From Clostridiales bacterium (GTDB lineage: Bacteria; Bacillota; Clostridia; Saccharofermentanales; Saccharofermentanaceae), in NCBI GenBank assembly GCA_017451265.1, contig JAFSPU010000003.1, positions 186,001 to 250,000 of the forward strand: 64,000 bases of DNA, given 5' to 3'. Position numbers and translations under genes: made by a program. The notes under the pieces are model-generated. The model had not been told where the DNA came from and ran no database searches. It saw only the letters and a program-made list of their open reading frames with translations. How positions within the stretch are numbered: position 1 is the stretch's first letter; every line of letters starts with the position of its first letter. This document shows, one piece after another, positions 362-4,361 of the stretch.

Positions 362-493
362 TTAGCCGAAGCTTGCGTAGCTCTTGCCGCCGTACAGAAC
401 TCGGATGAGCTGCATTCTCTGCTGGAACAGGATGCTTCTTACGTGTCTGTTGTGGCTGTAGATTCTTTCCTTTACGTCTGTGTGCTTTTTCAT
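362..493 (-). CDS. 43-residue basic small protein, unknown function
   Basis: A short ORF of 43 residues starting MKKHTDVKERIYSHNRHVRS and ending GGKSYASFG. It is preceded by a strong TAAGGAGG ribosome binding site seven bases from the ATG and followed by its own terminator, so it is very likely translated. It is rich in Arg, His and Lys, has no membrane segment and no cysteine, and could bind nucleic acid or ribosomes; that is only a guess. Its upstream region shares a 33-bp element with the other short ORF at 4060-4236, and both contain a short V-R-S motif in the middle. It matches no family I recognise. Confidence 0.7.
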   Translation of the reverse strand: MKKHTDVKERIYSHNRHVRSILFQQRMQLIRVLYGGKSYASFG

Positions 494-521
494 TTTAGTT
501 AGCCTCCTTAACTGGTATGGC

Positions 522-554
522 TAGATTTAACCATCCCTGATAAGGCAAACCAAT
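522..554 (-). promoter_or_regulatory. promoter-like element shared by two short ORFs, copy 1
   Basis: A 33-bp block 28 bases upstream of the 43-residue ORF. It matches the block at 4271-4303 in 25 of 33 positions, with a perfect 12-bp core TAGATTTAACCA at the gene-proximal end and AAGG..AACCAAT at the distal end, with no gap between the two copies. Read on the minus strand it gives ATTGGTT, a spacer, then TGGTTAAATCTA, which resembles a -35/-10 pair for an alternative sigma factor (GTTT, 14 bases, GGTTAA). A 7-bp inverted repeat CCTGATA/TATCAGG (536-567) overlaps the distal box. Confidence 0.55.
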
Positions 555-609
555 GAGTAATATCAGGCGTTTATGTCGCTTAATCAACACTTATGCACTC
601 AAGTGTCTG

Positions 610-1371
610 TTAGTCCGTGAACAGATCATTAATATTCACTTCGATTGCTGTTCTAATGAGTGTTTTATATGCCTCAGGATCAAAGACTTGGGAATCAGTC
701 ATTCGCAAAAACACGATATCCTTAAACTCACAGAATCCGTCATCGAAATACTCATACTGTCTCTCTATCGACTTGAGTTTATAGTTGCTGCGCTCCATCG
801 CACCGTCGATTTCTGACATCAGCATAAGATCAAGCTCAGGGATATTCACCGATACATCCGGATAGTGATCATAATGGTCTCCTGCTATATGTATTTCGGA
901 TTTATACTCATAACCCAATGACTCAACCACCTGCGCCGCTGACAATTCATTCTTGGTACGGAACTTCTGACCTTTATAAATTATCTTCAATGCCTCGGGC
1001 TTGTAAGTATTGGAGTTTATCTTCGCATTCTTAAAGAATTCCGAATTATATGGCGGCTGCCGCAGTCGTTTAAGCGGATACTTGATTATCCTAGGTTCTC
1101 CATTATATTCAATACGCCATTTCGATTCCAAGTATTCCAGTTCACTTTGAAGACGCATAGACTCTTCGATAATCGGCCTTATCAACTGACCCTGCTTGGA
1201 ATCAAGCTTAATTATGCGCTTGTGTTGATTATTGATTTCATTATCAGTTGGATCATGAGTAATATAAATCGCTCTATAACCCCGATGATTACCATAGTAA
1301 CCCTGAAGAATCTGCGAGAGTCGATACTTCAGATACGAAATCTTCAATTCATGGTGTCTTCTGCTTAACAT
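610..1371 (-). CDS. hypothetical protein with PD-(D/E)XK nuclease-like C-terminus
   Basis: A 253-residue protein in two parts. Residues 1-120 are helical and charged. Residues 130-250 carry the pattern of a small nuclease-fold family often seen in Clostridia genomes: RTKNELSAAQVVESLGYEYKSE, then a P-D in HYPDVSV, then SEIDGAM, where related proteins read as E-H-x-G. The P-D and E-x-D residues would be the metal-binding site of a PD-(D/E)XK fold. The canonical lysine is not obvious, so the active site is either variant or lost. No neighbour explains its job. The 230 bases in front of it are packed with direct and inverted repeats, which suggests tight regulation or an accessory origin. Confidence 0.6.
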   Translation of the reverse strand: MLSRRHHELKISYLKYRLSQILQGYYGNHRGYRAIYITHDPTDNEINNQHKRIIKLDSKQGQLIRPIIEESMRLQSELEYLESKWRIEYNGEPRIIKYPLKRLRQPPYNSEFFKNAKINSNTYKPEALKIIYKGQKFRTKNELSAAQVVESLGYEYKSEIHIAGDHYDHYPDVSVNIPELDLMLMSEIDGAMERSNYKLKSIERQYEYFDDGFCEFKDIVFLRMTDSQVFDPEAYKTLIRTAIEVNINDLFTD

Positions 1372-1417
1372 AGATTAAGCATATACTGGGCTTAGGTGGG
1401 AATCACCTACAAAAAGT

Positions 1418-1447
1418 CGACAAAAAACGACAAAATCCGACAAAGCC
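1418..1447. repeat. three tandem 10-bp iterons (CGACAAA)
   Basis: Three copies of CGACAAA begin at 1418, 1428 and 1438, exactly 10 bp apart, so all face the same side of the helix. A 6-bp hairpin TAGGTG/CACCTA (1393-1408) lies just before them. The repeats sit in the upstream region of the nuclease-like gene. Phased short repeats like these usually bind a protein array, but no regulator gene lies beside them. Confidence 0.6.
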
Positions 1448-1453
1448 CTTCAA

Positions 1454-1570
1454 ATGTATCTTATCGTTGACATAAAAACACCTAAAACCAGATAAAAATA
1501 AGATACATTCATCGGATGTATCTTATTCTCAACATTAATATGGTAAATTCATGCATCAATTAAGATACAT
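1454..1570. promoter_or_regulatory. four AAGATACAT operator-like sites
   Basis: The motif ATAAGATACAT occurs four times: inverted at 1454-1464, forward at 1497-1508, inverted at 1516-1527 and forward at 1561-1570. The middle two form a perfect 12-bp inverted repeat with a 7-base loop. There is no T-run after it on the minus strand that would make it a clear terminator. The sites lie between the stop of the flavin reductase gene and the start of the nuclease-like gene, so they most likely control the latter. Confidence 0.6.
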
Positions 1571-1602
1571 TTGCACGCCCGAACGGCCAATCAAAGCCCA
1601 AC

Positions 1603-2226
1603 TCACTTCACGACCTTAACGAAGTCCTCCTTCGGGTGGTGGCAAAGCGGACATTCGAAGTCATCGGGAAGTTCCTCGCCGACATATTCATAACCGCAGA
1701 CTGTGCAGCGCCAGATTGTCTGACCTGTCGTAGCATCAGTGCCCACCGCTTTAGGCTTAGGCTTGATATTTGCCTGATAATAAGCATATGTAACGCTCGG
1801 AACGTCATTAAAGACCTCAGACTCTTCTACATCGAAGATGAACATGGTATGTGTGCCGAGGTCGATGGTCTGACAGACTTTACCGGAGATATAAGCATTC
1901 GTTCCACGGGTGATATATAAAGTCCCGTTAGCGGTGCGCCTGCTAGCCGTGAATCCGTCAAACTTATCGACATCGCGGCCGGACTTTAAGCCGAATCGCT
2001 CGAACAATCCGAAAGTTGCTCTCTCGTTTAAGATGGATATCGTAAGCACACCGGACTCCAGGATCATGTCATGAGTAAGATTAGCCTTATTGAGCGTTAC
2101 CGACACGCGGTTCGGTGAGCTTGTTACCTGCACCGCGGTGTTAGAGATGCAGCCGTTATCCTTGAAAGTCTTGCTTGTAACGATATACAGGCCGTAGCTG
2201 ATGTTATACATTGCATTCTTACCCAT
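1603..2226 (-). CDS. flavin reductase-rubredoxin fusion (high-molecular-weight rubredoxin)
   Basis: A 207-residue cytoplasmic electron carrier. Residues 1-150 form a flavin reductase-like FMN-binding domain (SYGLYIVTS, NGCISNTAVQVTS, LTISILNE). Residues 172-203 are a complete rubredoxin iron site with two CxxC pairs, CTVCGY and CPLCHH. The same arrangement is known as high-molecular-weight rubredoxin in acetogens and clostridia, where it passes electrons from NADH or NADPH to flavodiiron proteins that reduce oxygen or nitric oxide. No flavodiiron gene is in this window, so the partner must lie elsewhere. The ATG is set by GGAGG six bases upstream. The domain calls are firm; the partner is inferred from the family. 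Confidence 0.9.
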   Translation of the reverse strand: MGKNAMYNISYGLYIVTSKTFKDNGCISNTAVQVTSSPNRVSVTLNKANLTHDMILESGVLTISILNERATFGLFERFGLKSGRDVDKFDGFTASRRTANGTLYITRGTNAYISGKVCQTIDLGTHTMFIFDVEESEVFNDVPSVTYAYYQANIKPKPKAVGTDATTGQTIWRCTVCGYEYVGEELPDDFECPLCHHPKEDFVKVVK

Positions 2227-2322
2227 GGGACACCTCCGAAGATTAATAAACTTATAGATTCATTTTACACCAACCGGCACGCACCAAATGAAAAGAAACT
2301 GTATATTCCTGCGGCCCGCCGA

Positions 2323-3396
2323 TTACCTTCTGAACGATCTGTAAGCACATCCGGACTGAGCACCGCCGCGGTACTCTGCGAGTTCCGATACAGTTACGAG
2401 CTGATACCCTCGGTTCTGAAGTTCCGGAATCAGATAAAGAGCGGCATCGACAGTCGGTGAATAGATATCATGCATCAGTATGATGTCACCGTCCCTAACC
2501 GAACCGAGAACTGAATTGATCGTAGCCTGAGTGCTTCGCGTTGCCCAGTCACGGGTATCGATAGACCACATGATCAAAGGCATTCCGGCTACAGCATCAA
2601 CGGTCTCATTATGATTGCCTCCCGGCGGACGCAGTACCGTCGTTCCCATACCAGTTGCCGCGCGAACTATATCATTAACTGTACTTATCTCACCCTGAAT
2701 ATCGGCAGCAGAAAGTCTCGTCAGATTCGTGTGATCGTAAGTGTGATTACCGATCTCGCAGCCTGCTCGGCGAATCCTTGCAAGCGTGTCTGTATAACGC
2801 TCGGCATTCATACCCACTACGAAGAAAGTAGCTGCTGCCCCGTGAGATTGCAGGCAAGATACGATCTCTGCCGTCCTGGGGCCCGGGCCGTCATCAAAAG
2901 TCAGTGCGACCATCGGCCGGTTCGGATCGACATATCTTCTGTTGCCGCGCGTGATACCGTATTCGGCACAGATTCCCGTGAACTCGGGAGAATTAACAAA
3001 TCCAGCAAAAACATTGCTCCTCGGATGTCCAGCATTAAGAAACGAGGTCCAGGAATTAAGTCCCGCCTCGTCAGCTTCACGTCCGAGCATTGCGCGGTAA
3101 AGAACCTGAACGAAAGCCGAATTATCAGCAGTCTGCGCGCGGCACTCGTCACTGAATATAAAACCGAATGCGACATCCGCACCTGTGCTTCCGCCGCTTA
3201 CCAGACGCGAAGTCCAGTCAGCTGCACCTTCTTCATCGGCTTCACGCCCGAGAGTCTCACGGTAAAGCCTTTCCACGAACTGTCTTACATTGTATGAATT
3301 ATCGTCAGCTATAACATCGACGCCGGATGCAAAAACTACCGGAAAAGCAATTGACGCTGCCATTACCGCCGCTAACGCTTTAATGAATCTTCTCAT
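2323..3396 (-). CDS. secreted polysaccharide deacetylase with two DUF4214 domains
   Basis: A 357-residue exported enzyme. Residues 1-25 are a signal peptide (basic start, long hydrophobic core). Two DUF4214 repeats follow at about 38-85 and 91-140, both with the L-Y-R-x-x-L-G-R-E-A-D-E signature. A NodB deacetylase domain fills about 160-345, with the metal-binding Asp in ALTFDDGPGPRT, the two His in GNHTYDH, LRPPGGN, and ILMHD near the end. NodB enzymes remove N- or O-acetyl groups from peptidoglycan or other surface glycans. DUF4214 is common in bacterial surface proteins and may bind glycan here. The start has a GGGAGG motif. It stands alone between unrelated genes. Confidence 0.9.
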   Translation of the reverse strand: MRRFIKALAAVMAASIAFPVVFASGVDVIADDNSYNVRQFVERLYRETLGREADEEGAADWTSRLVSGGSTGADVAFGFIFSDECRAQTADNSAFVQVLYRAMLGREADEAGLNSWTSFLNAGHPRSNVFAGFVNSPEFTGICAEYGITRGNRRYVDPNRPMVALTFDDGPGPRTAEIVSCLQSHGAAATFFVVGMNAERYTDTLARIRRAGCEIGNHTYDHTNLTRLSAADIQGEISTVNDIVRAATGMGTTVLRPPGGNHNETVDAVAGMPLIMWSIDTRDWATRSTQATINSVLGSVRDGDIILMHDIYSPTVDAALYLIPELQNRGYQLVTVSELAEYRGGAQSGCAYRSFRR

Positions 3397-3498
3397 GCAG
3401 GCCTCCCTATTCCATCTGTTATCAGTTTATCACTAAGTGCGTCAGCTAATCGACTGATGTTTAATATACATTTGCGTCCCCAGCCATACTTCGATAAT

Positions 3499-4056
3499 AT
3501 GAAAACTATGAGCAAGAATCTGACACGCAAACAACGCGATCTTATCGCCATCATCCTCCTCACCATACTCGGTGCTTTTATAGGCTGGGTATATGAGATG
3601 CTGTTCTACAGGATCGACCAGGGCCATTTCATCAGGCGCGGTCAGGGCGGCCCGTGGCTTCCTATCTACGGCTTCGGCGGCCTCTTCCTCACACTTGCTG
3701 TGTATAAGAGAAAGGTTAAGCCCATCATCGTTTTCATCATCACGATGATCGGATCATTCATAATCGAATTCACTACAGGCTATGTCCTCTACCACTTCTT
3801 CGACGGTATGCGCCTGTGGGACTACAACGTGGAGATCTGGAACTGGGGCAACATCGGCGGCTATGTCTGCATAAGGTCAGTCCTCATCTTCGGCGTCATG
3901 GGCGTCCTTTACGCCAAGTGGGCTATCCCGGGAGTATTAAACGCCGCAAGAAAAACAGACCGGAAGAAACTTCTCGGCCTGTTTATCCCCCTGTCGGTTA
4001 TCTTTTTCGGAGATATACTTTTCAGTTATATTCTCCGCCCCCTGTTGTTTAAATAA
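3499..4056 (+). CDS. CmpB-type putative ABC transporter membrane protein (PF06541)
   Basis: The only plus-strand protein gene. It encodes a polytopic membrane protein of about 185 residues with four to five hydrophobic segments. The family signature is GWVYEMLFYRIDQGHF followed by GPWLPIYGFGG, and the same signature recurs in the C-terminal half of the gene at 53131-54981, so the window holds a free-standing and a fused copy. The family is named for ABC transporters, but its function is not established. No clear ribosome binding site was found. Starts at 3457, 3499 or 3508 are possible. I chose 3499 because the hydrophobic family domain follows it directly; the sequence GATAAT just upstream could be a -10 box, which would favour a leaderless start at 3508. 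It converges on the short ORF ending at 4060 with no terminator between. Confidence 0.75.
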   Translation: MKTMSKNLTRKQRDLIAIILLTILGAFIGWVYEMLFYRIDQGHFIRRGQGGPWLPIYGFGGLFLTLAVYKRKVKPIIVFIITMIGSFIIEFTTGYVLYHFFDGMRLWDYNVEIWNWGNIGGYVCIRSVLIFGVMGVLYAKWAIPGVLNAARKTDRKKLLGLFIPLSVIFFGDILFSYILRPLLFK

Positions 4057-4059
4057 GGA

Positions 4060-4236
4060 TCAGAATACAGTCGCTTCGATTCTTCCGTATTCACTGTACT
4101 TTCCTACTGCGGAAGCGAGGCTTTTTCTTGCGCCGTTGTTTCCGATGCAGCCGTTAAGTCTTCTTAACTCATTGAACTTGCTGCGTACACGTACTGCGGA
4201 TGCGTTCTGATTCATTCCCATTACTGCATTGATCAT
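4060..4236 (-). CDS. 58-residue basic small protein, unknown function
   Basis: A 58-residue ORF beginning MINAVMGMNQNASAVRVRSK. The ATG at 4236 is chosen because GGAGG lies eight bases upstream; a longer reading from further upstream would place that motif inside the coding region. It is rich in Asn, Gly, Ser and Arg, with two cysteine-free basic patches and no membrane segment. Its upstream region shares the 33-bp element found ahead of the 43-residue ORF, so the two are probably controlled together. Its stop is three bases from the stop of the convergent plus-strand gene. No family is recognised. Confidence 0.65.
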   Translation of the reverse strand: MINAVMGMNQNASAVRVRSKFNELRRLNGCIGNNGARKSLASAVGKYSEYGRIEATVF

Positions 4237-4270
4237 TGTCCCGTCCTCCGTTTGAGTTTGATTCACTGAT

Positions 4271-4303
4271 TAGATTTAACCAAAACAAAAAAGGTGAACC
4301 AAT
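4271..4303 (-). promoter_or_regulatory. promoter-like element shared by two short ORFs, copy 2
   Basis: The second copy of the element described at 522-554. Its TAGATTTAACCA core lies 34 bases from the ATG of the 58-residue ORF. The distal AACCAAT box overlaps the hairpin that terminates the lipoprotein gene upstream, so a terminator and a promoter share bases here. The spacing of the two boxes is identical in both copies. Confidence 0.55.
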
Positions 4304-4340
4304 AATCAATGTTCACCTTAAATGTTGTTTAAACAACATT
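4291..4340 (-). terminator. lipoprotein gene terminator plus 20-bp perfect palindrome
   Basis: A 9-bp stem AAGGTGAAC/GTTCACCTT with an 11-base loop (4291-4319) is followed on the minus strand by TTTTTTGTTTT, a good intrinsic terminator for the gene ending at 4362. Between it and that stop lies a perfect 20-bp palindrome (4321-4340, half-site AATGTTGTTT), which may be a protein binding site or a second hairpin. Confidence 0.8.
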
Positions 4341-4361
4341 AATTTCTGAATTCGTCGCTTA

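Follow-up and report, generated by a model that had tools for sequence, protein, structure and literature searches.

The pneumococcal blp and Bacillus cereus PlcR regulons use LytTR or PlcR regulators. Both place scattered genes for exported peptides or proteins under one operator. A similar organization was found around two small open reading frames (ORFs) in a 64,000-nucleotide stretch of DNA (the window; positions 186,001 to 250,000 of contig JAFSPU010000003.1, assembly GCA_017451265.1) from a Clostridiales bacterium of the family Saccharofermentanaceae. ORF1 and ORF2 each lie behind a composite element in which, in contrast to blp and PlcR, a palindrome is combined with half-sites and the regulator is probably a TetR protein. 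We consider it fairly likely that both ORFs are transcribed from activator-dependent sigma-A promoters of an exported-peptide regulon that is present in part of one genus.

In Vibrio, the TetR-family regulator LuxR/HapR operates with the Qrr small RNAs; by analogy, and not by sequence, a TetR-family gene stands here beside a conserved candidate small RNA with an element promoter, which was recognized in 4 of 30 TetR loci. DhaS, a member of the TetR family that activates the dihydroxyacetone kinase operon in Lactococcus lactis (listed as the activator of this kinase in PMC12647141), resembles the TetR protein found here in that its model is the best NCBIfam match, in solved structures, and in the pairing of TetR_N with TetR_C_8; unlike DhaS, the protein here scores far below the 129-bit cutoff and is linked to a peptide exporter and to many promoters. 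The NHLM/NHLP export system (TIGR03794, TIGR03796, and TIGR03797; Haft et al. 2010, PMC2887384) shares with the system here an ABC1 protein with a C39 peptidase and double-glycine substrates; the ABC2 protein here scores close to the cutoff of its model. Unlike in that system, the substrates here are scattered, none of 8 double-glycine target peptides matches the NHLP or Nif11 leader models (NCBIfam, E ≤1), and the HlyD-like protein (genome G032) is short and far below the cutoff of TIGR03794 (28.5 bits against 156.2). The exporter here goes together with a TetR gene and a shared operator; a term search of PMC2887384 finds neither “regulator” nor “promoter.” Among the literature matches listed, in a search with most subscription journals outside its range, no title or abstract beginning describes such a regulon, and “Saccharofermentans” occurs 0 times in a rumen bacteriocin paper (PMC13289728).

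Architecture of the composite element

A preliminary description of the window, made from its sequence alone, had pointed to ORF1, ORF2, and a 33-bp block upstream of each. Both ORFs were found where it placed them, on the minus strand; the 58-aa (amino acid) form of ORF2 starts from the ATG at 4234-4236, within a longer, GTG-started frame that spans 4060-4266. The blocks (522-554 and 4271-4303) indeed share 25 of 33 bases, TAGATTTAACCA among them, and end 28 and 34 bases upstream of the start codons of ORF1 and ORF2, respectively. In the genome of origin (G000; 1.96 Mb in 15 contigs, ∼70% complete; G numbers denote the genomes compared and L numbers DNA stretches), a pattern built from the block matches, with no mismatch allowed, only the two window sites and, at ≤3 mismatches, 5 sites, compared to 0 for the reversed pattern; TTGGTT-N14-TGGTTAAATC, also with ≤3 mismatches, matches 19 times compared to 4 in controls.

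When these two-box matches were aligned together with their upstream DNA, a 16-bp palindrome, TGTYGNTTAANCRACA, was found 20 bp upstream of TTGGTT. The block is real but is the downstream, promoter half of a larger element, in which the palindrome starts 35 bp further upstream. The full order is an upstream half-site, the palindrome, 20 bp, TTGGTT (the −35), 17 bp, and an extended −10, followed by a ribosome binding site and a start codon. The composite pattern from the palindrome to the −10 (≤3 mismatches) gives 19 matches in the genome of origin and 0 when reversed, and the palindrome alone (≤1 mismatch) is found at 23 places compared to 2 in the control. The spacing was then scored free of the 20-bp assumption, at every distance from 0 to 60 on both sides of each of these 23 palindromes: exact TTGGTT is located at 20 bp in 16 instances, at 39 in one, and at 50 in one.

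The element was characterized over 72 distinct aligned copies, with positions numbered from the first T of the palindrome. Eleven of the 49 stretches obtained from a scan of named-species genomes were excluded from this alignment and from the list of targets, namely, ten from unrelated taxa and L118 (uncultured Clostridium), in which the match has no ORF behind it. Upstream of the palindrome (positions 1 to 16), the half-site AANCRACAC is conserved at positions −21 to −13. Downstream, the block ATTRMYCATTGGTTTG, which contains the −35, occupies positions 29 to 44; the TG of the extended −10 occupies positions 57 and 58 (65% and 66% of the copies); and the −10 itself, often GATAAT, CATAAT, or TTAAAT, occupies positions 60 to 65, its last three bases being A, A, and T in 83%, 90%, and 97% of the copies. 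A pyrimidine-purine step follows at positions 71/72, 7 nt downstream of the −10, and an A-rich leader comes next. The −35, TTGGTT, is off consensus, and its spacer to the −10 is 17 bp. Judged from the sequence only, the spacer, the −10 hexamer, the pyrimidine-purine step, and an operator at a preferred upstream distance are all those of a sigma-A promoter with an upstream activator; the element fits such a promoter, in which the −10 is extended, the −35 departs from consensus, and a dyad lies upstream, centered at about −63.5.

Targets and distribution of the regulon

The preliminary description had proposed a common regulatory element and a regulon with small proteins, along with a genome-wide search for the motif in front of ORFs. 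The search was positive, and the survey bears the proposal out. Among 93 distinct copies (extended pattern, ≤2 mismatches), 77 are followed, 28 to 70 bp after the −10, by an ORF of ≥30 aa that opens with an ATG behind a ribosome binding site, compared to 4 of 93 in the opposite direction and 160 of 3,720 random positions (4.3%). An ORF of the double-glycine type follows 30 of the 93 copies compared to 21 of the 3,720 random positions.

The genome of origin carries 20 copies, and the targets, assigned to classes by a heuristic that mislabels some (two 124-aa membrane proteins were labeled as double-glycine) and counted by hand, include peptides with a double-glycine leader (5), proteins with Sec-type signals (6), and lipoproteins (2). 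The further targets are a prepilin-like 48-aa peptide (N_methyl, 21.3 bits; cutoff, 21.2), a nonribosomal peptide synthetase (NRPS)-like protein with AMP-binding and condensation domains, ORF1, ORF2, an 87-aa ORF, and a 124-aa membrane protein. One copy has no ORF in range, with a lipoprotein start 171 bp away. DUF4214 was identified in both of the Sec-type targets that were scanned, and of the 8 double-glycine target peptides compared with the leader model TIGR01847 (cutoff, 15.7 bits), one scores 18.7 and two score 14.1 each. Weaker copies precede two more double-glycine peptides (L060, 3789, minus strand; L067, 3395, plus strand) and perhaps a third, at L070, where no start codon with a ribosome binding site was found. 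Given its many targets of these kinds, the element appears to mark a regulon of exported peptides and proteins that includes small basic peptides like ORF1 and ORF2. For the role in stress or sporulation that had been suggested, no evidence was found; many targets look exported, and the linked machinery is a peptide exporter.

Very short (44 to 58 aa) prepilin-like peptides recur in the regulons of several genomes (Table 1). An NRPS-like protein of 979 to 998 aa is a regulon member in three genomes (L059:856-3792, minus strand; L110:409-3432, plus strand; L124:1395-4427, minus strand).

Both small proteins are probably translated, because the ratio of nonsynonymous (dN) to synonymous (dS) substitutions in ORF1 is well below 1 and the codon usage of ORF2 is gene-like. 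Orthologs of ORF1, each with the element upstream, are present in G045 (88% identity) and G030 (59%), and no further relatives were detected at E ≤0.01 among the 85 genomes of the genus, that of origin included. All three proteins are 43 aa long, with no change of frame. The dN and dS values are 0.098 and 0.918 between G000 and G045 and 0.301 and 1.910 between G000 and G030, the latter dS being near saturation and the gene short. The codon log-odds of ORF1 are 0.397, against −0.72 and −0.83 in the two alternative frames on its strand; those of ORF2 are 0.435, compared to a median of 0.442 for real genes and a 95th percentile of −0.511 for wrong frames. No relative of ORF2 was found at E ≤0.01 in the 84 other genomes of the genus. 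The statement of the preliminary description that neither protein matches a known family stands: in Pfam and NCBIfam, ORF1 has no hit and ORF2 only subthreshold noise. ORF1 ends in GlyGly plus seven residues.

With ≤2 mismatches, the short composite is found in 42 of 148 genomes, all of them among the 85 of the genus, and is absent from the 63 genomes of the rest of the family and order. Its 249 matches over the 148 genomes, part of which are one palindrome read from both strands, compare to 14 for the reversed form; since the reversed pattern also gives matches, genomes with a single match may reflect chance. The half-site pattern with the right half left free is found in 36 of the 85 genomes (119 matches compared to 2 in the control). 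Of the 49 stretches from the exact scan of named-species genomes, 38 belong to records titled Clostridiales, Clostridia, Ruminococcaceae, or Saccharofermentans, most of which, judged by their titles, come from ruminants.

A candidate regulator and competing explanations

A TetR gene (L058:14502-15080) is divergent from an element copy in several genomes. Orthologs (≥48% identity over at least ∼180 aa) are present in 33 of the 85 genomes, and two or more element matches were found in 25 of the 33 genomes with TetR compared to 4 of the 52 without (Fisher P = 8.6e-11, uncorrected for ancestry). The 30 TetR loci examined (102 kb) contain 13 copies in 11 genomes, 11 of them with ≤2 mismatches, compared to 0 for the reversed pattern and ∼0.3 expected from the genome-wide rate. 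Merging shared arrangements leaves six placements beside TetR (G000/G045/G039/G030; G058; G069; G052; G008; G043/G029/G040). The Poisson probability of this number is 8.3e-7, rising to 3.6e-4 if the rate is tripled; the rate derives from a slightly different pattern than the count at the TetR loci.

The operator also varies together with the TetR protein. Residue 49, which opens the predicted recognition helix (residues 48 to 54 in a structure prediction), is Gly in 9 of the 30 loci, Ala or Thr in 20, and Val in 1. At operator base 40, 48 of 56 sites of the Gly class have G, whereas 37 of 47 of the Ala/Thr class have T; base 14 is A in 50 of 56 compared to T in 24 of 47; and base 35 is C in 38 of 56 compared to G in 35 of 47. 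These counts cover 103 of 119 sites in 26 genomes and are uncorrected for shared ancestry. The 16 excluded sites comprise 15 from genomes that lack the TetR ortholog (G004, G005, G016, G021, G026, G041, G053, G059, G070, and G074) and one chance match in G000; the TetR alignment comprises 24 of the 30 loci, the 6 excluded loci including matches that run over a stop.

Membership in the TetR family is clear from PF00440 (TetR_N, 30.6; cutoff, 24) and PF14278 (TetR_C_8, 50.3; cutoff, 26.1). The best NCBIfam match is the DhaS model TIGR02366 (51.2 and 57.4 bits, short of the equivalog cutoff), the solved DhaS-type structures 4mk6 and 2iu5 match as well (2iu5 with an E value of 2.4e-6), and the predicted fold is all-helical with a helix-turn-helix (predicted local distance difference test score, 88). 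The gene is frequently close to a C39-peptidase ABC exporter: among 25 genomes with both, the two lie ∼0.5 kb apart in 8, ∼4 kb apart in 4, and 14 kb apart in 1. The ABC1 protein of the genome of origin is assigned to NHLM model TIGR03796 (903.6 bits; cutoff, 853.3), and ABC2 scores 706.4 in this genome and 716.8 in G032 against model TIGR03797 (cutoff, 709.4).

The TetR protein is the best candidate regulator of the element, and we infer binding and activation from the observations above. A dimer of this DhaS-related protein would bind the palindrome at about −63.5, and perhaps extra half-sites too, and would touch RNA polymerase across the fixed 20 bp, making up for the weak, off-consensus −35. 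The active regulator would turn on a battery of exported peptides and proteins, of which the double-glycine peptides would leave via an NHLM-type peptidase/ABC exporter, whose genes neighbor TetR in many relatives. Possible inputs are the partner-switch genes (STAS and SpoIIE/HATPase) that lie close to the exporter.

Several observations weigh against this reading, beyond shared ancestry, which may affect both comparisons. At the promoters, 7 of the 23 palindromes in the genome of origin lack an exact TTGGTT at 20 bp, and 16 of the 93 copies have no nearby ORF, some of these copies possibly being chance matches. As to the targets, the NRPS-like protein, the 124-aa membrane protein, and the 87-aa ORF are not obviously exported, and neither ORF1 nor ORF2 has a canonical leader, with no hit to TIGR01847. 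As to the regulator, four genomes (G004, G026, G070 with 12 matches, and G074, which is 99% complete) have two or more matches and no TetR ortholog, and three (G049, G054, and G073) have TetR and no match. A copy is missing from 19 of the 30 TetR loci, and the one beside TetR in the genome of origin is degenerate (3 mismatches). G069, of the Gly class, carries the Ala/Thr-class half-site CATCA at 4 of 4 sites. Finally, TetR and the exporter are on separate contigs in the other 12 of the 25 genomes, including that of origin.

It is possible, if rather unlikely, that a different regulator, such as the LytTR protein of an Agr-like system or another palindrome binder, acts on the element, while TetR regulates the exporter operon only and is linked to the element by hitchhiking in one subclade. 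The element-bearing genomes without a TetR ortholog and the uncorrected ancestry would suit this explanation, as would an Agr-like operon (identified by reading) on the contig that holds 8 of the 19 composite matches of the genome of origin; LytTR and Crp were, moreover, the only other regulator families compared across the genus. LytTR proteins are present in 83 of the 85 genomes and therefore do not discriminate, occurring in element-less genomes as well, and LytTR sites are usually direct repeats. Against any other regulator stand the crowding of elements around TetR genes in several distinct arrangements and the variation of operator bases with the TetR recognition helix.

Repression is the usual role of TetR-family proteins, and TetR might bind the element as a repressor released by a ligand. 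We regard this as unlikely: the palindrome sits entirely upstream of the −35, preferentially at exactly 20 bp, and the −35 itself departs from consensus. In addition, the nearest named relative of TetR, DhaS, is an activator (PMC12647141).

A more far-reaching joint reading, to which we give little credence, would make the whole a cell-to-cell signaling circuit that broadcasts peptides. In it, the DhaS-like TetR activator would switch on dozens of exported peptides; ORF1 would be a pheromone precursor cut after GlyGly, releasing via the NHLM exporter a seven-residue tail (KSYASFG in two genomes and NNYAGIA in the third); and the element-driven small RNA would feed back on TetR, as a Gram-positive counterpart of the Vibrio LuxR-Qrr loop.

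The preliminary description favored an alternative sigma factor with boxes GTTT and GGTTAA. This reading, in which the factor would be SigB-like and under the control of the exporter-linked partner-switch genes (STAS and SpoIIE/HATPase), is highly improbable. The −10 of both window copies reads GGTTAAAT, and STAS and SpoIIE/HATPase_c_2 genes do adjoin the exporter and TetR operons. This explanation was rejected because the 72 aligned promoters show TTGGTT, 17 bp, TG, and a −10 of the NATAAT type, with GATAAT and CATAAT common; the two G's preceding the −10 are weakly conserved (66% and 34%), and the conserved GTTT and GGGTA-type boxes of SigB-like promoters are missing over the 72 copies. Much conserved sequence is located upstream of the −35, where sigma factors do not bind.

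A CRP/FNR-family activator on the palindrome (TGTNN-N6-NNACA, class I position), whose sites resemble the element in half-site shape and promoter distance, can be largely set aside as the least probable candidate, since the three element-richest genomes have only marginal PF13545 matches (best E values of 8.7e-4 in G000, which is 70% complete, 2.6e-4 in G039, 69%, and 4.4e-4 in G030, 99%; matches at similar E values elsewhere fall under the cutoff), with the exception of G012 (9 element matches), which has a strong Crp-type helix-turn-helix above the cutoff (E value, 4.0e-10).

Window features, gene neighborhoods, and significance

The features of the window, together with the prepilin-like targets and the candidate RNA, are collected in Table 1. 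At 4290-4325 on the minus strand, a hairpin that resembles a terminator (AAGGTGAAC/GTTCACCTT followed by a T run, identified by eye) and belongs to the lipoprotein gene upstream overlaps the −35 of the ORF2 promoter, and because of this overlap, the stretch may double as a terminator and a promoter. Between ORF1 and ORF2, a polysaccharide deacetylase with DUF4214 repeats is encoded at 2323-3396 (minus strand) without an element; DUF4214 recurs in targets of the regulon.

Table 1 Coordinates of the two promoters and ORFs in the window and of related features elsewhere
Feature	Position	Strand	Basis
ORF1, 43-aa small basic protein, regulon member	362..493	-	ORF list, orthologs, dN/dS, codon usage
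ORF1 ribosome binding site AAGGAGG	503..509	-	sequence, scored
ORF1 predicted transcription start, A after C, 7 nt after −10	518	-	predicted from pyrimidine-purine step
ORF1 promoter extended −10 TGGTTAAAT	525..533	-	element alignment
ORF1 promoter −35 TTGGTT	548..553	-	element alignment
ORF1 palindromic operator (16 bp) TGTTGATTAAGCGACA, with TTGGTT exactly 20 bp downstream	574..589	-	pattern searches
ORF1 upstream half-site AACAGACAC, 1 mismatch to AANCRACAC	603..611	-	element positions −21 to −13
ORF2, small protein of 58 aa in the regulon	4060..4236	-	ORF list, codon usage
ORF2 ribosome binding site GGAGG	4245..4249	-	sequence, scored
ORF2 predicted transcription start	4267	-	predicted from aligned copies
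ORF2 promoter extended −10 TGGTTAAAT	4274..4282	-	element alignment
ORF2 promoter −35 TTGGTT	4297..4302	-	element alignment
ORF2 palindromic operator (16 bp, perfectly symmetric) TGTTGTTTAAACAACA, with TTGGTT exactly 20 bp downstream	4323..4338	-	pattern searches
ORF2 upstream half-site AAGCGACGA, partial match to AANCRACAC	4352..4360	-	element positions −21 to −13
Prepilin-like target	L065 site 729	-	
Prepilin-like target	L104 site 5743	+	
Prepilin-like target	L115 site 589	+	
Prepilin-like target	L129 site 1175	+	
Prepilin-like target	L197 site 6267	+	
Prepilin-like target	L203 site 7204	+	
Candidate noncoding RNA	L058:14200-14330	-	
Candidate noncoding RNA	L144:3500-3630	-	
Candidate noncoding RNA	L111:870-1000	-	
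Candidate noncoding RNA	L153		

Four genomes (G000, G045, G039, and G030) carry beside TetR an element directed away from the TetR gene, into a conserved stretch of ∼100 nt, the candidate RNA, which is identical at 39 of 42 positions (24 to 65 of the first sequence). A terminator-like hairpin follows; it differs in sequence, and for 5 of 9 predicted pairs, at least one of the four sequences has both bases changed. The candidate RNA has a hairpin with GCCTTCC in its loop. An Rfam scan of the G000 candidate gave no match at E ≤1, and a tRNA was ruled out as the transcript, there being no tRNA at this place. In G039, a lipoprotein gene follows the candidate RNA.

The exporter and TetR genes form recurrent runs: STAS, a short HlyD-like protein, ABC1, ABC2, and TetR in G032, G047, G057, and G040 (in all but G040, a double-glycine peptide gene comes next), and TetR, HlyD-like, ABC1, and ABC2 in G046, G015, and G008. 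The family scans cover the exporter of the genome of origin and the G032 genes, the other labels being assigned by likeness. STAS genes and, in part, SpoIIE/HATPase_c_2 partner-switch genes adjoin exporter/TetR operons in L192, L193, L195, L197, L198, and L203, and in G029 (L198) the element precedes a 623-aa fusion of STAS with an acyl-CoA ligase. The Agr-like operon (AgrB-like protein, GHKL kinase, and LytTR regulator, by reading) lies at L057:120-2645 (minus strand), beside relaxase and serine recombinase genes, and is probably within a mobile element.

For a whole class of peptides secreted by little-studied rumen bacteria, these findings yield a regulator-operator-exporter hypothesis that can be tested. 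The element is also a sequence signature by which hidden small-protein genes can be found, including genes without homologs, such as ORF2. The best-known control of peptide secretion uses LytTR or RRNPPA regulators; if the favored reading is true, a TetR-family activator with strict, class-I-like promoter spacing would be added to them.

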